Assembly: GCA_030669595.1 (NCBI GenBank)
Contig: DAOVDG010000010.1
Span: 1 to 32,325, forward strand
Reading direction: 5' to 3'
Source: Candidatus Thorarchaeota archaeon
GTDB lineage: Archaea; Asgardarchaeota; Thorarchaeia; Thorarchaeales; Thorarchaeaceae
Length of the DNA: 32,325 bases
Positions within the stretch are counted from its first letter, which is position 1. Every line of letters begins with the position of its first letter. This document shows, piece by piece, positions 11,549 through 20,337 of the stretch. Below the pieces are notes generated by a model. The model made no database searches and had not been told where the DNA came from. It saw only the letters and a list, made by a program, of their open reading frames with translations. A program made the translations under genes and the position numbers.

Positions 11549-13465
11549 TTACGTGTTCTCAGTACGAGCCGCCCCGTTGAGTGACGCTACACTCTCAATC
11601 TCATTCTGGATTGACCTAGTTTCTTCTTTCAGTCCGTGATGCTTTGCAGACTCTAATGCCTCCTCAAGGGCAATGGTCAGTCGCTCTAGCTCTTTCTGAC
11701 GCTTCGCGTGGTCGGAGATGGCCAACATGGCATTACGTTTCTTCGGCATTACTCTAAGTAGACTATGAATAGCCTCCAGAGCGTCGTCCTTGCTGGACAT
11801 CACTGGTTCTTGCTCGTCGTCTGAGGCTGATATGATGCGGCCTATTTGTTCATGGAGCTGTTTGTGCTTGCCCAGAGCACCCTTGAGAATCTCTTGGACT
11901 TCACTGTCCGACTCTGCGTTGGAAAGTTCCTTTTCGAGTTGCTTGATGGTTCGTTCAAGGAAGCCCCTTCTCTCGGACAGACTAGTTCTTCGCTGCTCCA
12001 TCCAGCGCCACTCATTCTCCATGCCGTGAACAAGAGCAATCGCTTGATTCACCTTGCGCTGATAATTCGCGAGCTTCTCCTTGGCAGCTTTAAGGTCAGA
12101 CTGTAGATTATCAGTAAGGTAAGTTAGCTGATAACTTAACATATCGTCAGCATTGTCCTCGGAGAGCGTACGTGACTCTCGAATGGCTGACTCGGCATTG
12201 CTCCATAGAGAGTCAATCTCCGCATCATCTCTCAAGGTTTGGCCCTTGAGCTCAAGCTCATCTGATATCTGTTCAATCTCCTTATTGATGGATTGAATCG
12301 CTTCAATCTTAGACCGGAGTGATGCTTTGCTTCGTCTGCTGCTGATTTCTCGTGTCAGCTTCTCGCGTTCCTTAGGAACTGCTTGAAGAGCGTGAACATT
12401 GTCGATGAGAAACTGTAATGCAGTGTCATACTCCGCCATAGCCTTGGAGAAGTGGCGCTCCTGCAGAAGACCGTCGCCTTGACGTTGATGATTCAACACG
12501 GACTCTAGCACATCGTAAGGCGACGTCTTGAGTAGGTGGTCATCTTGAATTTGATTATTGGCTTTGCATAAATCTAGTGCTTGCCCTTCAAGAGAGATGC
12601 CTATGACCATCAATCCTTCTGAAGATGCAACATATATCAGGTCATGGTCAGCTGCAACCCTTCCGTGCTTGATCCCATTCTCTCTGATCTGACCTAATTG
12701 AACATCTTTCTTAAGATCCCAAATGGTTAGGAACCCTGCAGTCGAAGATGTAACGAGATAAAGATCATTGGCCCACATTGAAACCAAGGGCTCATCAGTC
12801 TGTGATTCCAGCGTCCGAACATGGTTCCATCCAACACGGTCCCAGAGCTTCACATCACCCGAGGTTAGACCCACCATGACAAACTGGGCGTTACCTGTTA
12901 CAGCAGTACTGCGGTCTGTCTTATCAAGCACCGCGAGCTCAGTTGGTGCTGTATCAAGATCACGGGTCCAAACCACTGGAGATTCCTTCTTGGTCCCTGA
13001 GCATATTACGCTGCCATTGGACCATAGCACTGTTATTTCTGACTTGTGCAGTGGCCAGCTTGAAGTTTCGTTAGTATCCTTCTTAATTGACAATAGACGT
13101 CCTTCACGTGTGCCAATATAAAAAGAGTCACCATGGAGGTCAGAGGTCAGCGCATGATAGCTGAGCTCGAACCAGCCAATCAGCCCCCAAGTTCCCTTTC
13201 GCCACATATACACTCGTCGTTCGCAGGTGGCGTATACATGATCCCTGTCAACATGTACGGCTAATGGCTCAGAGTTGGTTTCACCTAGTTCAGCAACAAG
13301 CTGCCAATCACCCTTAGACCACACTCTCACGTATTTGTCCTTGCATGCAGCGTAGAGAAACCGGTCATCATGGCTGATATCGACTGCGTCTACCTCAAGT
13401 ACAGCCACCTCCTCGTGAGTTACCGAAGGTGATTCTGGCGCAGAATTGTCCTGTTGACCGGACAT
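11549..13465 (-). CDS. WD40-like beta-propeller protein with long C-terminal coiled coil
   Basis: The 638-residue protein is modular. Residues about 20-300 contain WD40-like blades with ending strands YVRVWSKG, RVYMWRKG, DVKLWDRVGW and FLTIWDLKKD, each preceded by an LYAAC/FVMVG/LYLVTSS-type strand. A helical hairpin (LLQERHFSKAMAEYDTALQF, about residues 340-360) resembles a TPR or MIT hairpin. The remainder to about residue 630 is heptad-rich coiled coil (for example KEIEQISDELELKGQ, RTIKQLEKELSNAES, KRQKELERLTIALEEALES). This architecture suggests a scaffold. The ATG at 13465 follows GAGGAAGG at eight bases. A 48-base upstream extension is rejected because it would bury that site. It is divergent from the tubulin-family operon, about 210 bases between starts, which hints at a shared role. 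Confidence 0.8.
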   Translation of the reverse strand: MSGQQDNSAPESPSVTHEEVAVLEVDAVDISHDDRFLYAACKDKYVRVWSKGDWQLVAELGETNSEPLAVHVDRDHVYATCERRVYMWRKGTWGLIGWFELSYHALTSDLHGDSFYIGTREGRLLSIKKDTNETSSWPLHKSEITVLWSNGSVICSGTKKESPVVWTRDLDTAPTELAVLDKTDRSTAVTGNAQFVMVGLTSGDVKLWDRVGWNHVRTLESQTDEPLVSMWANDLYLVTSSTAGFLTIWDLKKDVQLGQIRENGIKHGRVAADHDLIYVASSEGLMVIGISLEGQALDLCKANNQIQDDHLLKTSPYDVLESVLNHQRQGDGLLQERHFSKAMAEYDTALQFLIDNVHALQAVPKEREKLTREISSRRSKASLRSKIEAIQSINKEIEQISDELELKGQTLRDDAEIDSLWSNAESAIRESRTLSEDNADDMLSYQLTYLTDNLQSDLKAAKEKLANYQRKVNQAIALVHGMENEWRWMEQRRTSLSERRGFLERTIKQLEKELSNAESDSEVQEILKGALGKHKQLHEQIGRIISASDDEQEPVMSSKDDALEAIHSLLRVMPKKRNAMLAISDHAKRQKELERLTIALEEALESAKHHGLKEETRSIQNEIESVASLNGAARTENT

Positions 13466-13624
13466 TTTATTGGCCTTCCTCGTATAGGAATTGAATTCTA
13501 ATTCCCGTAGCATGACTTAAGGCATTTCCTAGCTTGGCTGCTAATGCCTCGCGGATTTCGAGCAGCTTACAGACGCGATTAGTGTATAAACAAGCTAGAT
13601 TCAATTGACCCAAGCGCAGAACAG

Positions 13625-13632
13625 TTTTAAAA
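13625..13632 (+). promoter_or_regulatory. TATA-like box for the tubulin-family operon
   Basis: TTTTAAAA is 44 bases before the operon's first ATG, with a strong AGGAGG (13663-13668) seven bases upstream of that start. A second box, TATAAA at 13585-13590, lies farther up in the divergent region and could serve either direction. Confidence 0.55.
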
Positions 13633-13675
13633 CGACAGACCGATTTGAAGTTACGCTACATCAGGAGGAAGGCTC

Positions 13676-16372
13676 ATGGATAGTCACGTATGGCGGCGCG
13701 AACTTGATAGACTCTCTGAAATGAAAGGAATGTTAGCAACAATCAACCCATCCACAGAACAACAGACTGACCGACAGGTTCGCCAGTTGTATGATGTGTA
13801 TGCGAAGCTTACGGGCCTAGACAAGGATCTCAGTGATACTTCAGGATTGAGCGTCCTGAAGAAGAGGAAGATTGCCGGCCAGATAGAAAAGGTGTCCAAG
13901 AACATCAAAGAAGATTTCATGAGAGTGGTCAGAGACTTCGCAGATATCTTCCGAAAGGAGCAGAGAGACTTTGCTGCAATGCTGCCACGCATTCAGTATT
14001 TCAAGCCCGCCGAGACAAAGACGCTGTCATCATTGAGTTTCCCGTCAATAGGTGCAGGAGACATAGATGACTTCGAAACGCTGTATAAATACGGGAAGAC
14101 ATTCTCACAGCATTACGCGACTCTTCATCAAGATTTTGTCCGAGAAGTCAAGGGAAAGCTTGACGAGAATAAGAGGACTCTCGAAACCTATGAGAGACAC
14201 ATTTCCATTGACAGAGGAGAGGTACCCACAACTTCCTCCATCGACGAAGTCGCTAACCTACCCATGACTGACCTAATTCCCATTATGGAGAAACTGAAGT
14301 CGGATGAAATCTATCTTGACGGACGCAAGGATGAGGTCAGCAAGATGCTGAGTGTTTCACTTATCACAGAAGTCGAGTCACTGCAGACCTCAGTTGAAAC
14401 CGCCTCGCGTCTTGGACTAGACCTTCCGATGGATTTCACGAAGCAGCTTCGGGTGATTGCTAGGGACTCATCCAAGGCAAATAACTTGACTGCGTTGATC
14501 AGCCTTGAAAATCAGCTTGATGCTGCTAGGTTGAAGATGTCCAATATGCTTCGGGATAGAATCATAAACATGAAACATGAGGTCACCGCCAAGATTGTTG
14601 AAGGAGGCATTCCTACTACTGCAGATGTCATTCCTCTACCCCCTGATGTCGTCCCTGAAGCTGATAATATCGCAAGCCTTCTTTCCGCTTATCAGAAAAT
14701 GGTAGAATGGAGCGGACAGGTCAAGATATCTCTTAAAGACAGAGTTGTAGACGCCCTTAATGATGTAGAGAAAGCAACGGACTTCCCTGATGATGCTGGC
14801 ATCAAGGACATCATCTCGGTTCGCAAGTTTGTTGCAGACTCCAAGAAAGAGTTGAAGCGCGCCGAGATTGACGGCATGATAAAGATTCACCTTAAAGCTA
14901 GGTCAATGGTAGACGAGTATAACAAGAACATCACAGAACAGATCCGGTCGTATATCACCCGGTTCAACGAACTGGCAACATCAGCAGACAAGGTCCTAGA
15001 CTACGCGCAGCTAAGTAAGAAAGCTCCAAAAGTCGAGGAACTAGAAGGTGGAACCGTGTTTCTCCTCGAATCCTTGGCGAACCTTAGAAAGGCTGTCGAG
15101 AGTGGAGTCGGCACCTTCCGAGATGCTGCAGGCCAAGAGATAGATGCGATAATATCAGACCTGCAGACAATCAAGCCTGCATTCGCAGAGATTTTCATGC
15201 CTATCATCAGCGAGCTCGACGAAACCAAGAGCCGCATTGCTGTAATGGAGGAATTTGGCGAGATCCGCTCAGAGATGCGAAGCACAAAGGAAGCCATTCT
15301 AGCCAAGGCAAAGGATGCCTTGGAGAACCTCCGATATCGCTTAGGCGTAAAAATTAGACTTGCCGCAGCCAAGCTTATGGGCGCAGGAGTGGAAATCCCA
15401 AAGGAAGCACAAGAAGCAATTGGTGAGCTCAACTCTGTGAGCATCGCGGCTGACACCGTGTTTAGTCTCCCGGCCATTGCCCGTAAAATGGTCGAGCTCT
15501 ATGAACACAAGATCACCGCGAAGGTTATCGAGGCCCTCGATACGGAAACGGTGGAGTTAAAGACATCCTTCGGACGCGCTGAAGCGATTGGCGTTGACCT
15601 GAAAAAGGAACTGAAAGTTCTTGACAAGATCATCTCCCAGCCCCCTCAGGAGCTGGAGGATGCCGCTGAGTACTTCGACAGGATTAGGGCTCTCACTACC
15701 TCAACAAAAGTCCAAGATAAAATAAAGGATAGAGCCAATGAGTCATACGAGCAACTCAAGAGTGCAACCACGTTATTTGAAGACCAAGGGATGCCCGAAA
15801 CTGTGGAACGTCTGAAAACGCTGCTGGAGAAGGTTCCGGAACAGCTCTCTGCAGAGTCTCAGCACGTGAACGAGGCACTTAGCGTGTGTCTCACTCTTGC
15901 AACAATCCAAGATGAGATGCTTTCCATTGTCAAAGGGATATCTCAAAAGGATGGAGAGAATCATTTAGAGAATCTCAAGAGAAAGAGCAAGTATCACTCG
16001 ACCATAACACGTGTGTACGAAACTCGTCCTGATGATTTTAGTAAGGTTATTTATCCTCTAAAGGAACTTCAGGAAACAGAAAAGAAGCTGGAAAAATCTG
16101 AAACCCTTGACGAGGCAATCAAACATTTCAACAAGATAGCTGAGTTGAGAGAGGGCTGGGTCGAGAAAGCAGGCAAGATGAACGAATGGCACAAATCAAT
16201 GAAAATGTTTATGGCTGGTTTCAGTCCAGCGGCTTCCCTAGATGACCGCAACAAATTCATTGACGACGCAACTCGGAAAATCAAAGAAACCTACAGCAGA
16301 GAGGACATCAGTTCTTATCTAGGCTGGGCGCTGAAAGAAATCGCCGAAACAATGGTCGAGAAACGAGGATAG
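13676..16372 (+). CDS. 898-residue all-helical coiled-coil repeat protein
   Basis: I do not recognise a named family. The protein is almost entirely helical and charged, with no transmembrane segment and no signal peptide. Degenerate modules recur, marked by an A-x2-x-G-[LVA]-[DE]-[LI] turn between helices: ASRLGLDLPMDF (about 242), AKLMGAGVEIPKEA (about 566) and AEAIGVDLKKEL (about 636). Each is flanked by long amphipathic helices such as KTQ-, KLEKS- and DKIKDRANESYEQL-type stretches. This looks like a spectrin- or plakin-like rod rather than one continuous coiled coil. It is the first gene of an operon, with the tubulin-family GTPase starting 18 bases later, so it is a good candidate for a filament partner, cross-linker or membrane linker. 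Cytosolic location is inferred. Confidence 0.75.
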   Translation: MDSHVWRRELDRLSEMKGMLATINPSTEQQTDRQVRQLYDVYAKLTGLDKDLSDTSGLSVLKKRKIAGQIEKVSKNIKEDFMRVVRDFADIFRKEQRDFAAMLPRIQYFKPAETKTLSSLSFPSIGAGDIDDFETLYKYGKTFSQHYATLHQDFVREVKGKLDENKRTLETYERHISIDRGEVPTTSSIDEVANLPMTDLIPIMEKLKSDEIYLDGRKDEVSKMLSVSLITEVESLQTSVETASRLGLDLPMDFTKQLRVIARDSSKANNLTALISLENQLDAARLKMSNMLRDRIINMKHEVTAKIVEGGIPTTADVIPLPPDVVPEADNIASLLSAYQKMVEWSGQVKISLKDRVVDALNDVEKATDFPDDAGIKDIISVRKFVADSKKELKRAEIDGMIKIHLKARSMVDEYNKNITEQIRSYITRFNELATSADKVLDYAQLSKKAPKVEELEGGTVFLLESLANLRKAVESGVGTFRDAAGQEIDAIISDLQTIKPAFAEIFMPIISELDETKSRIAVMEEFGEIRSEMRSTKEAILAKAKDALENLRYRLGVKIRLAAAKLMGAGVEIPKEAQEAIGELNSVSIAADTVFSLPAIARKMVELYEHKITAKVIEALDTETVELKTSFGRAEAIGVDLKKELKVLDKIISQPPQELEDAAEYFDRIRALTTSTKVQDKIKDRANESYEQLKSATTLFEDQGMPETVERLKTLLEKVPEQLSAESQHVNEALSVCLTLATIQDEMLSIVKGISQKDGENHLENLKRKSKYHSTITRVYETRPDDFSKVIYPLKELQETEKKLEKSETLDEAIKHFNKIAELREGWVEKAGKMNEWHKSMKMFMAGFSPAASLDDRNKFIDDATRKIKETYSREDISSYLGWALKEIAETMVEKRG

Positions 16373-16390
16373 CTTCAGGAGAAAGAATCC

Positions 16391-17785
16391 ATGCAGAGAT
16401 TTACAGGAAAGGGTGCTGAATCTGATGAAACACGAGCCGCAGAAGTATTCGCCATTGGAATTGGCGAATGTGGTTCGAATATTGTTGGATCATATCTGAA
16501 AACTAGCCGAGATAAGCGGCTACCGTCAAGAGTCAGAGGCTACATACTCATAAACACTGACAGAGCAGACATTACCAAGGTCCGCTCGAAGTATGGTATA
16601 CCGAAAGAGAACACGCTGCTTTACGGCGCCAGTGAGATAGGCGTCGGCGGAAGGTTCATGGACGGATACAACTCAGTACTGGAGTCAAAGGACATCATCT
16701 TCAACCAGCTAGCGGACCTCGGGTTTGAAGGCGTATCAGGGTTTTGCATATTCACCAGCCTTGGTGGGGGTACAGGATGTGGAGGCACACCGGCCATCAT
16801 CGAAGCTCTGAAGCAGAGGTTCCAAGAAGAAGAAGGACGTCGCATCTTCGTGTACGTGATTGGTGTCCTTCCATTTGAAGGCCAATCCAGCGAAGCTCTG
16901 AACTCCATCTGGGCAGTTTCAAAACTCCTTCGTGCGCAACTACAAGAACGAGGAGCAGACCTGACTATTCTCTTGAGCAATCGTACAATGTTGAAGCGAA
17001 TTATCCAATCAAGAAAGGCCGATACTGTGGACTATCTTCAGAGAGAATTGGATGTCGACATCGCGAATATCAACCAAATAGAAACGATGGTGCCTTCAAC
17101 CTTGGATGAAGCTGCAGACCTAGATGTGAGAACCGAGCAGGCCTTTGTGGAGCTTGTGAACCCTCTAGCCATCGATGTGGTTGAAGCAATGCTCTCGCCC
17201 GGCGTATATGAGGCCAACAAGGATGTGTTCCCAACTACGGACCTTGCAGATTATGCCAGGAAGCTGGACCCAGTTGTCGTGCCAGCACTGTACAAGGGTA
17301 TCGGCTTGATTCCTGACGCGGGAAGCATGCCCAAACAGTTAATGACAATGATTGACTACGCTGTCAAAGAGTGCTCTTACGCCGACATTGGAGAAGAGCC
17401 AAACGCCGAAAGTGTCTACTACGTCCTAAATGGGCCAAAACACGTCGCAAAAGCTGAATACGGTATGCATCTCAAGGATGCACTAAGCAAGTTCATTGCG
17501 CCTGGAGCCGCCATAACTCCCTGCTACGTGCAGCATTTCGTTGAGGACCCCCCCACTGATCTACTACTGCTTCTAGGCTTGCCCAAGATACCTGAACTCA
17601 TCAAGATTATCAATGAGGCCACGCAGCTAGTAAATCTCCACAGTGGACCATCTCCGTTGAAGCAGAGCTGGTTCATGAGATCGAAGGGTACGACTCGCAA
17701 GGAGCTCGTCAGTGCAATCGCTGATTTCAGAGAACTGTTCAGCTACTACATGACCCCCGGGGACTCCGCAACACCAATCGAATAA
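16391..17785 (+). CDS. Divergent tubulin/FtsZ-superfamily GTPase
   Basis: The 464-residue protein keeps the superfamily's nucleotide-binding elements in order: T1 GIGECGSN (residues 23-30), ILINTDRAD (53-60), T4 signature SLGGGTGCGGTP (123-134), the T5 region LPFEGQSSEA (160-169) and LSNRTM (195-200). The T7 loop that completes GTP hydrolysis in the neighbouring subunit reads NPLAID (257-262). The final catalytic acid is kept, but the first acid of the usual NxDxxD is replaced by Leu. Canonical FtsZ has GGGTGTGAAP, and CetZ/tubulin GGGTGSG, so this is neither a standard FtsZ nor an obvious CetZ. The longer C-terminal domain lacks the short FtsZ tail motif. GTP-dependent polymerisation is expected from family. 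Operon partners on both sides suggest a dedicated assembly. Confidence 0.9.
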   Translation: MQRFTGKGAESDETRAAEVFAIGIGECGSNIVGSYLKTSRDKRLPSRVRGYILINTDRADITKVRSKYGIPKENTLLYGASEIGVGGRFMDGYNSVLESKDIIFNQLADLGFEGVSGFCIFTSLGGGTGCGGTPAIIEALKQRFQEEEGRRIFVYVIGVLPFEGQSSEALNSIWAVSKLLRAQLQERGADLTILLSNRTMLKRIIQSRKADTVDYLQRELDVDIANINQIETMVPSTLDEAADLDVRTEQAFVELVNPLAIDVVEAMLSPGVYEANKDVFPTTDLADYARKLDPVVVPALYKGIGLIPDAGSMPKQLMTMIDYAVKECSYADIGEEPNAESVYYVLNGPKHVAKAEYGMHLKDALSKFIAPGAAITPCYVQHFVEDPPTDLLLLLGLPKIPELIKIINEATQLVNLHSGPSPLKQSWFMRSKGTTRKELVSAIADFRELFSYYMTPGDSATPIE

Positions 17786-17800
17786 GCGGATGGTGACCTA

Positions 17801-18850
17801 TTGAGCGAACCGTTTCCGATGAATGAATTGGTTGACAGGCTCCTCCTGATTGCCACACTGAACTCTACACTGATTCATTTCCTGTTGAGTTCCCAGATTG
17901 AAGGCAGCATAGATCCGGACAGGGTGGACTCACTAACTCAAGGGCTAACGAGAACCCGGAAATGGATGGAGGATGCTACCACTTCAGAAGGCATACCCTC
18001 TTCCACCGCAAACATCATGGGATTGATAGTGAAAAGACTCTCTCAGATAGAGAGCCTCCTTCCAAAGCTCTCATTTATCGCAAAGAAAGCTGAAGTCCAC
18101 GGGGGGCCAACTCAAGAGATACTATCGCTCCTTGAAGACAGCACCAGATCTGCTGAAGGTTCAACCCCTTTTACAGGGACATCCAATGTTGTTCCATTGG
18201 TTGAGGGGGCAGCTCCAGCGCCTGAAGAAGCCTTCAGAAAGGTACAGGTCGAGGACGACGAGTGGGGTTTGATAGGAAAGACTCAGCGGCTAATCAAACA
18301 GTATTCCAAACGGTGCCACGTGCTGTTGCCCACTTTCTGGCTCGAGGTTGTAAGAGACATTCACAAGTACAAGTCAAGCTCACCCTACGCCAGCGAGATC
18401 ATTGAAATACCTGCGAAGATTGCATCTCAGATAGTGAAGACTCTATTGACTGAAGCTCCAGGTGCAAGACTTCTGCAGGACCTGTCCAAGAAACGACCTG
18501 CTGAGATCTACTTGGATCCTTCGGAAGCCGAGCGCATAGAGAGAGCAGTATCAAAGTATTTCTCCGGACTCGAAGGTGTCCTCAGTGGTGCAACTCCCAA
18601 ACCTGCAGACAAGGTTTCAGAGGCACAGATGATTTTCGACGGCTTTGATTGGGGCGGGCCTGATTTAGAGAAACGAATTATAAAACGGTTCAATCAGCGA
18701 TGTGAGGAAACGCTTCGTGATGCAGAAACCGCTACCGACCCCGCCAGACAAGTCATCTATGCTGAGGCCACAAAACTGCTTTGCAAATTACAGCACGCGC
18801 TCCTTGCTGAACCCAGATTCAGAGAGATACTTGCCCAGATAAAACCATAG
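17801..18850 (+). CDS. Uncharacterised 349-residue protein with an internal duplication, in the tubulin-family operon
   Basis: I recognise no family. Residues 1-115 are helical (NELVDRLLLIATLNSTLIHFLL and an IVKRLSQIESLLPKL segment), followed by a low-complexity linker near 115-150. Two copies of one module follow. Copy 1 (about 152-228) has EWG, RLIKQYSKRC, then ASEI and LLTEAPGARLL. Copy 2 (about 281-346) has DWG, RIIKRFNQRC, then AEATKLL and LLAEPRFREIL. Trp155-Cys172 and Trp284-Cys301 have exactly the same spacing. There is no signal peptide or membrane helix. The start is TTG at 17801, with GGTGA four bases upstream; ATG 17819 is an alternative. It lies 15 bases after the GTPase stop, making it the third gene of the operon and a likely accessory factor. 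Confidence 0.75.
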   Translation: MSEPFPMNELVDRLLLIATLNSTLIHFLLSSQIEGSIDPDRVDSLTQGLTRTRKWMEDATTSEGIPSSTANIMGLIVKRLSQIESLLPKLSFIAKKAEVHGGPTQEILSLLEDSTRSAEGSTPFTGTSNVVPLVEGAAPAPEEAFRKVQVEDDEWGLIGKTQRLIKQYSKRCHVLLPTFWLEVVRDIHKYKSSSPYASEIIEIPAKIASQIVKTLLTEAPGARLLQDLSKKRPAEIYLDPSEAERIERAVSKYFSGLEGVLSGATPKPADKVSEAQMIFDGFDWGGPDLEKRIIKRFNQRCEETLRDAETATDPARQVIYAEATKLLCKLQHALLAEPRFREILAQIKP

Positions 18851-18930: not shown

Positions 18931-20337
18931 ATGTCGGGTCTAGAGAGAATGCTTAATCCCAAAAAGACAGCTGTCATTGGCGTTAGCACATCGAATCCAT
19001 TCTTCCCCGGAAACGTCATCTTCAGGAAGTTGCGTTTCGAAAATGGCCTTCCCACGTTTCCTATCAACCCGAAAGGAGGAATGGTAGAAGGACAGAAAGT
19101 ATACAAATCGATTCTGGAAGCTCCGGATGGCATCGACCTCGTCGTCATCTCAGTTCCATCCAAGCATATACCCGGAATAATCGAGCAATGTGGAAGCAAG
19201 AAGATTCCCTCTATCATAGTCGTATCTGGAGGCTTCGGTGAAATAGGTCCCACAGGTGCAACTCTGCAAGCAGAGATTATCGATATCGCAAATAAGTACC
19301 ACATAACCATGGTGGGGCCTAATTGCATTGGTGTATTCGTACCTGACAAGCTTGACACATTTTTCTTGCCCTCTGAAAGAGTCGCTCGACCAAGAAAAGG
19401 GCACGTGGCGATCATATCTCAGAGTGGTGGGTGGCTCGTTGAGCGACTCGAAGAGTTTGCAACGCGCGACCTAGGAATTGCAGCAGCAGTTTCCATTGGC
19501 AACTCAGCCCAAGTGAACGTGACTGATTTCGTTAAGCATTTTGGCAAAGACAAGAACGTGCGAGTCATTCTGGCCTATATCGAAGGTTTTGAGCCCAATG
19601 AGGGACGAGAGTTTGTTGAAGCCTGTGCCGAGGTTGTGCCAAGAAAGCCTGTGGTTGTTCTGAAGGGAGGTGACTCGGAAGCCGGGCATCGGGCAACACA
19701 GAGTCACACTTCATCTCTCGCCGGAGATTCTGTTGTGGCAGCTGCCGCTTTCAAGCAGTACGGAGTAATTCAAGCGGTAGATGAAGATGAGGTCATGGCT
19801 TACACTAAGGTATTCTCATTTAATCCTCGCTTGATGAAAGGCTCAAGAGTTGGAGTAATAACTGTCAGCGGGGGTCATGGTGTTATTGCCAGCGATGAGG
19901 CGTCATTCTATGGTCTGGTACTCCCGCCGTTCACCAAGGAAGACCAAGAAGCTATGAGGGAAGTGATGACTCCTGCATACAGAAGGATTGCCTCATTTAC
20001 AAATCCGATCGACCTCACGGGAAGTGCGGCAGATATCGACTACGAGCAGGTGCTAAAGGTCATGCTCGGCTTGGACTACATCGACTCCGCCTTGTTGTTG
20101 CTCCTGCCTTACACTTCAGGAATATCCCTTCAGATTGGAGCGAGAGCAGCGAATGTTACAAAGCAATTCAACAAGTGCGTGGTCGCCTATGTTCCGGACT
20201 TGAACAAGTATGAAGTAATTCTGAGAGGCTTCGAGCTCAATGGCATTCCTGTGGGCGATACAATAGAAGAAGCAGTGCAGATGCTCAATGGAATTCGAGT
20301 TCGCTCTAGGTTCCTTCGACAAATAGGAAATCCGTAA
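18931..20337 (+). CDS. acdA: ADP-forming acyl-CoA synthetase, alpha subunit
   Basis: The 468-residue protein matches the alpha subunit of archaeal acetate/acyl-CoA:ADP ligases (about 455-465 residues). It has an N-terminal CoA-binding domain (LNPKKTAVIGVS at 8-19, then FPINPKGG), the VVISVPSKHIPGIIEQCG and IIVVSGGFGEIG strands, MVGPNCIGV near 130, AIISQSGG near 160, and the phosphorylated-histidine region QSHTSSLAGD near 256-265, followed by a second ligase domain ending in TNPIDLTGSA. The complex makes ATP from an acyl-CoA and releases the free acid. The ATP-grasp beta subunit is not adjacent: the next gene is the oppositely oriented isoprenoid isomerase. Substrate range cannot be judged. 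Confidence 0.92.
   Translation: MSGLERMLNPKKTAVIGVSTSNPFFPGNVIFRKLRFENGLPTFPINPKGGMVEGQKVYKSILEAPDGIDLVVISVPSKHIPGIIEQCGSKKIPSIIVVSGGFGEIGPTGATLQAEIIDIANKYHITMVGPNCIGVFVPDKLDTFFLPSERVARPRKGHVAIISQSGGWLVERLEEFATRDLGIAAAVSIGNSAQVNVTDFVKHFGKDKNVRVILAYIEGFEPNEGREFVEACAEVVPRKPVVVLKGGDSEAGHRATQSHTSSLAGDSVVAAAAFKQYGVIQAVDEDEVMAYTKVFSFNPRLMKGSRVGVITVSGGHGVIASDEASFYGLVLPPFTKEDQEAMREVMTPAYRRIASFTNPIDLTGSAADIDYEQVLKVMLGLDYIDSALLLLLPYTSGISLQIGARAANVTKQFNKCVVAYVPDLNKYEVILRGFELNGIPVGDTIEEAVQMLNGIRVRSRFLRQIGNP

Follow-up and report, generated by a model that had tools for sequence, protein, structure and literature searches.

Three closely spaced genes in the genome of a Candidatus Thorarchaeota archaeon, the middle one coding for an unusual relative of tubulin and FtsZ, raise the question of whether some Asgard archaea possess a tubulin-type filament system apart from those already described. 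The window analyzed here is the whole of a 32,325-nucleotide stretch (DAOVDG010000010.1, forward strand) that constitutes contig 86 of a Thorarchaeota metagenome-assembled genome (MAG; 2.17 Mb, 85% complete). The three genes, hereafter referred to as the cassette, all lie on the + strand as open reading frames: gene 1, ROD (13676..16372), for a predicted all-helical, elongated protein of 898 residues; gene 2 (16391..17785) for a GTPase of the tubulin superfamily of 464 residues, with a match to the Pfam family PF00091; and gene 3, THIRD (17801..18850, TTG start), for a protein of 349 residues that is likewise predicted to be all-helical. Their order and the short gaps between them (18 bp for ROD/GTPase and 15 bp for GTPase/THIRD) are as described in an initial sequence-only reading of this window. 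Comparison of sequences and predicted structures indicates that the cassette probably encodes a dedicated three-component, GTP-driven filament system, in which the GTPase would be combined with a helical cross-linker and an adaptor.

The GTPase within the tubulin superfamily

The match of the GTPase to the Pfam Tubulin family PF00091 is strong (E-value of 1.5e-19; 71.5 bits vs. a cut-off of 33), while its score against the NCBIfam FtsZ model TIGR00065 (32.5 bits vs. a cut-off of 295.2) is below threshold, and neither an FtsZ_C nor a Tubulin_C domain is matched in Pfam. This protein is a divergent member of the tubulin superfamily and, by the NCBIfam model, not an FtsZ, in agreement with the non-canonical character attributed to it from the sequence. 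An additional weak match to Tubulin_2 (PF13809, E-value of 0.0033) would be expected if it belonged to the FtsZl1 membrane-remodeling systems, but at 17.2 bits vs. a cut-off of 27 it is far weaker than the 71.5 bits obtained with PF00091, and the vWA, OmpA or P-loop GTPase partners that mark FtsZl1 operons (PMC2875224) are absent at the cassette. FtsZl1 membership is refuted on domain content and retains next to no probability. Membrane remodeling, which had been suggested for this locus, finds no backing in the proteins themselves: no transmembrane-like segments are present in ROD, GTPase or THIRD, a scan for membrane-binding helices yielded no amphipathic candidate consistent across members of the cassette protein families, and all three proteins look soluble by sequence.

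Across five class-level Asgard lineages, the GTPase shows a sequence identity of 42–98%. Its nucleotide-binding loops, compared among 56 members of the family, are readily recognized on the + strand of the window. The T1 loop (G-I-G-E-C-G-S-N, residues 23–30, 16457..16480), with G23, G25, E26 and G28 invariant, aligns with T1 of FtsZ and CetZ; it is followed by the T3 loop (G-V-G-G, residues 84–87, 16640..16651; G84, G86 and G87 invariant) and by an entirely invariant T4 phosphate-binding loop (residues 125–131, 16763..16783), which reads GGGTGCG vs. GGGTGTG in FtsZ and GGGTGSG in CetZ and tubulin. The T7 synergy loop (P-T-T-D-L-A-D, residues 281–287, 17231..17251) aligns with NVDFAD of E. coli FtsZ; its D284 and D287 are invariant, and the Asn of the NxDxx[D/E] motif is not kept. 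Filaments of FtsZ, CetZ and tubulins assemble head to tail in a GTP-dependent manner, with the T7 loop of each subunit completing the active site of the subunit that follows. By analogy with these relatives, we infer from family membership that the GTPase would polymerize head to tail with GTP, its D284 and D287 acting on the nucleotide bound by the neighboring subunit.

A tubulin-fold GTPase could instead operate as a non-polymerizing switch, i.e., a nucleotide-dependent scaffold on ROD that forms no filaments. Such a role would accommodate an unrecognizable C-terminal domain, for which profile comparison with the C-terminal domains of FtsZ, CetZ and tubulin gave no significant match (a probability of at most 1% against Asgard FtsZ, and an hhalign probability of 1.4% against CetZ with GLPKIPEL paired with CetZ GVTNVPRVKEL), as well as a long insert after T6 (residues about 205–245 in the alignment) and the dissimilarity of ROD and THIRD to known filament regulators. 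The invariance of both T7 acidic residues, which in relatives act across the subunit contact, argues against a switch of this kind, and we consider it unlikely.

Among solved structures, the closest to the GTPase are CetZ (4b46, 1.1e-13), then tubulins and OdinTubulin, and the profile of the family is likewise closest to CetZ (4.7e-16), with Asgard tubulin at 8e-10 and Asgard FtsZ at about 1e-8. The T1–T4 loops are similar to those of CetZ from Haloferax (4B46, 4B45; also 3ZID). The ranking would be compatible with the GTPase being an Asgard CetZ, that is, a cell-shape protein whose operon neighbors are of secondary importance. Nevertheless, a tree of the family with Asgard FtsZ1, FtsZ2, CetZ, Asgard tubulins, TubZ and E. 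coli FtsZ shows it as a single clade (support 100/99) outside FtsZ1, FtsZ2, CetZ and the Asgard tubulins, and a tree built from the GTPase domain alone recovers it again as one clade (99/99). The latter tree separates the GTPase family, CetZ and tubulin from all FtsZs (99/98) and unites the CetZ sequences in a clade of their own that excludes the family (98/91). The first tree groups the family with tubulins (97/90) on long branches, a grouping absent from the GTPase-domain tree, and sister-group tests by the approximately unbiased (AU) method allow both family plus CetZ (p-AU 0.39) and family plus tubulin (p-AU 0.48). As judged by sequence, the GTPase is a third deep family of the tubulin superfamily in Asgards, situated on the CetZ/tubulin side. 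In view of the separate CetZ clade, the C-terminal domain without a significant match to that of CetZ and the invariant helical partners, an Asgard CetZ is an improbable description of this protein even though its grouping with CetZ is not rejected.

The family nevertheless has a probable counterpart in the literature. Asg.Tub was described as an Asgard CetZ-like group with coiled-coil-like neighbors and an unmatched C-terminus (Santana-Molina et al. 2023, PMC9871819), and it resembles the cassette GTPase in being Asgard-only, in its CetZ-like N-terminal domain and unrecognizable C-terminus, and in its position intermediate between CetZ and tubulin. The cassette GTPase probably belongs to Asg.Tub, a correspondence based on described traits rather than on accessions. 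In contrast to the scarce sequences and unrelated gene contexts reported there, it is found here in 72 genomes of five lineages with an invariant ROD-GTPase-THIRD order. Thus, of the earlier suggestion that the system is undescribed, the part concerning the GTPase probably does not hold, while that concerning the cassette as a unit stands within the literature searched: a term search of the main texts of PMC12583498 (Asgard FtsZ), PMC13394414 (Asgard tubulins) and PMC12993045 (a 2026 Asgard review) found no description of it, subscription papers and preprints being mostly outside this search and an earlier description therefore possible. Sequences labeled at NCBI as “Lokiarchaeota” (L066, L084) and “Heimdallarchaeota” (L103) also fall in the cassette GTPase family. 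Asgard tubulins (OdinTubulin, AtubA/B) share with it the host group and the same side of the superfamily (the family-plus-tubulin grouping being allowed, as above), but they form a separate clade and are rare, with a reported occurrence of about 1% among the Asgard genomes surveyed (PMC13394414) vs. 72/228 for the cassette GTPase.

Conservation of the three-gene unit

A co-occurrence survey of 228 Asgard genomes, mostly metagenome bins, revealed a largely all-or-none distribution of the cassette. The GTPase is present in 72 genomes (75 matches minus weak cross-matches in G089, G051 and G215), ROD in 70 and THIRD in 68 (69 matches minus a weak one), while about 155 genomes contain none of the three genes. 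All three occur together in 59 relatives, and the same gene order is observed in every lineage that carries them, namely Thorarchaeota, Hermodarchaeota, Borr-/Sifarchaeota, Baldrarchaeota and Hodarchaeales, with intergenic spacing of mostly 2–26 bp or an overlap (exceptions: L055, L059 and L060). Retention of order and spacing across five class-level lineages is much more than would be expected by chance. An internal control with 27 genes of the window supports this assessment: outside Thorarchaeota, only the cassette genes and, in Borrarchaeota, a CoA-ligase gene remain adjacent.

The proposal of dedicated partners on either side of the GTPase withstood the two refuting conditions attached to it in the sequence-only reading: the GTPase lies outside the FtsZ and CetZ clades (above), and its homologues usually have both neighbors. 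In the incomplete sets, the match runs off a contig end or consists of fragments only. These sets comprise genomes with GTPase without ROD (G024, G220, G120), GTPase without THIRD (G003, G098, G106, G107) and ROD without GTPase (G031); for G098 and G120, the contig break is deduced from the GTPase, of which these genomes show nothing but short fragments. In the single-contig genome G027 (CP070658, L046:8322-9182), the readable part of ROD is confined to its last 287 residues, beside an intact GTPase, reflecting either a truncation or a sequencing error. At one of the loci with exceptional spacing, L059 of genome G016, the genes between GTPase and THIRD code for a membrane protein, TPR- and HEAT-like proteins and an esterase-like protein, while in the sister genome G026 the interval is only 158 bp.

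In three Hodarchaeales genomes, a second ROD-GTPase pair is present. The ROD tree and the GTPase tree both place this second copy as sister to the first, hence ROD and GTPase were duplicated together. Since the second copy keeps ROD-GTPase without a recognizable THIRD, its sequence content suggests that ROD is an obligate partner and THIRD a more dispensable one. A conserved protein of 310–312 residues without a Pfam family is encoded 5′ of ROD at this copy (L115:12246-13178, L119:7866-8795, L121:12958-13893); we considered the 311-residue neighbor as a possible relative of THIRD and found no profile relation. Between ROD and GTPase, two Hodarchaeales genomes contain open reading frames of 1202 (L123:9358-12963) and 773 residues (L120:5069-7387), also without a Pfam family, of which the former was ruled out by profile comparison as a copy of ROD.

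The distribution of the cassette also bears on a possible origin as a TubZ-TubR-like DNA segregation system of a plasmid or provirus, for which operons combining a tubulin-like GTPase with a partner are typical. The contigs are long and chromosome-like, the inheritance appears vertical, no relatives were found in plasmids, phages or viral contigs, and neither ROD nor THIRD has a DNA-binding domain over cut-off, all of which makes a segregation system very improbable. A short-pattern scan of genome contigs returned Asgard matches only, the patterns having missed the main Hodarchaeales copies, so that distant non-Asgard relatives are possible.

Helical partners and the proposed filament system

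ROD and THIRD define two protein families without a counterpart in any of the public libraries that were searched. For ROD, no family over cut-off was found in Pfam or NCBIfam, and the PDB yielded no relative by profile and no fold match at E <= 0.001; weaker fold matches to dynein tail, spectrin and vinculin are not significant and were discarded. Its structural model consists only of helices, arranged in an extended series of long ones (mean predicted local distance difference test score, pLDDT, of 86), consistent with the helical rod originally envisaged, although the low predicted template modeling score (pTM 0.39) means that helicity is reliable and overall shape is not. Across members, ROD ranges from roughly 900 to 1300 residues, and conservation is highest toward the C-terminus (about residues 751–898). 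THIRD, too, has no family over cut-off in Pfam and no match among PDB profiles or PDB folds (E <= 0.001). It is modeled as all-helical (mean pLDDT 80), with a helical N-terminal part, a disordered linker (about 101–140) and a C-terminal domain (about 150–349) at pLDDT of about 95. An internal duplication in THIRD, noted in the sequence-only reading, is not supported, as profile-profile comparison of the two C-terminal halves gave a probability of only 0.57%.

In the proposed filament system, ROD would bind GTPase filaments, most likely via the conserved ~130 residues at its C-terminus, and cross-link, space or tether them, and THIRD, the smaller of the two partners, may serve this complex as an adaptor or regulator. 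Given that FtsZs exist alongside the cassette and that the cassette itself is missing from most Asgard genomes, the complex would likely provide an internal cytoskeleton (shape, internal organization or cargo positioning) rather than the division ring itself. In the source genome, two canonical FtsZ-type genes are both located on contigs other than that of the cassette, and the number of tubulin/FtsZ superfamily members is exactly three in nearly all of the Thorarchaeota that were searched.

A role in or upon the division ring, with the GTPase and an EzrA-like rod as a third divisome component beside FtsZ1 and FtsZ2, deserves consideration in this context. In Firmicutes, FtsZ is under the control of helical rods, EzrA for example, and the likeness to FtsZ with EzrA or SepF lies in the combination of a filament GTPase with a regulator, all-helical and rod-like in the case of EzrA; EzrA differs from ROD in being membrane-anchored. 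The GTPase is also conserved as strongly as FtsZ: for one pair of Thorarchaeota genera, its conservation is 84% vs. 77% and 82% for the FtsZs, with ROD (56%) and THIRD (66%) evolving faster than the GTPase. Furthermore, in two incomplete Hermodarchaeota MAGs (G044, G122), the cassette GTPase is the only PF00091 protein found, and canonical FtsZ may possibly have been lost in some Hermodarchaeota. On the other hand, most Asgard genomes have FtsZ but no cassette, so that the latter is not a general requirement of FtsZ-based division; the GTPase is placed with CetZ and tubulins and apart from all FtsZs; and the ftsZ genes reside on other contigs. A divisome component therefore appears unlikely as well, if marginally less so than a non-polymerizing switch.

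Several observations weigh against a dedicated filament system and temper our preference for it. The unmatched C-terminal domain of the GTPase accounts for half of the polymer contacts in its relatives, and in the ROD model only helicity, not overall shape, is reliable. In G016 (L059:10139-18358), about 8.2 kb of other genes separate GTPase from THIRD, and THIRD may be dispensable altogether, given its absence from the second Hodarchaeales copy.

An operon joining a tubulin-type polymer with its own filament-binding partner has a precedent in BtubA/B with BtubC of Prosthecobacter (PMC9871819). BtubC is kinesin-light-chain-like, whereas no such Pfam match is found in ROD or THIRD, and the cassette GTPase is far from tubulin. 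The GTPase occurs in roughly one third of the 228 genomes (vs. about 1% reported for tubulin), with two paralogues in some Hodarchaeales. If it does polymerize, Asgards would have had a tubulin-type filament that is broadly conserved and comes with associated proteins of its own. We lean, by a small measure, toward the view that an early Asgard ancestor already had a third filament system of the tubulin superfamily in complete form, including a dedicated helical cross-linker and adaptor, apart from FtsZ-based division, CetZ and microtubule-type tubulins, and that a multi-part tubulin-like cytoskeleton thereby predates eukaryotes. Asgards are the microbes nearest to the ancestors of complex cells, and the Hodarchaeales, among the carriers of the cassette, are close to eukaryotes; if this view is true, a tubulin-like cytoskeleton with dedicated proteins would be older than eukaryotes and, within Asgards, far commoner than tubulin. 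Being a fixed unit of three genes, the cassette renders the question of non-division cytoskeletons in Asgards directly testable with three recombinant proteins.

Candidate expression signals and neighboring genes

Upstream of ROD, two candidate promoter elements can be read from the + strand, TATAAA (13585..13590) and, alternatively, TTTTAAAA (13625..13632). Each cassette gene on this strand is preceded by a Shine-Dalgarno-like site: AGGAGGA (13663..13669) for ROD, AGGAGA (16377..16382) for the GTPase and GGTGA (17792..17796) for THIRD.

The divergent gene on the - strand (11549..13513) encodes a WD40-propeller and coiled-coil protein with WD40-type Pfam matches, of 638 residues (start at 13465) or 654 residues. 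It had been tentatively counted as part of the system; it adjoins the cassette in most Thorarchaeota genera (not in G014, G016 and G026) and was not found at cassettes of other classes, and was thus rejected as a conserved cassette member. On the 3′ side, an NDP-forming acyl-CoA ligase alpha-type gene (18931-20337 in the window) follows the cassette at most Thorarchaeota loci and is also found at the Borrarchaeota loci L036, L037 and L131; it looks metabolic. Finally, at locus L168 of genome G089, tubulin-like genes for proteins of 405 and 422 residues lie side by side, resembling an AtubA/AtubB pair.

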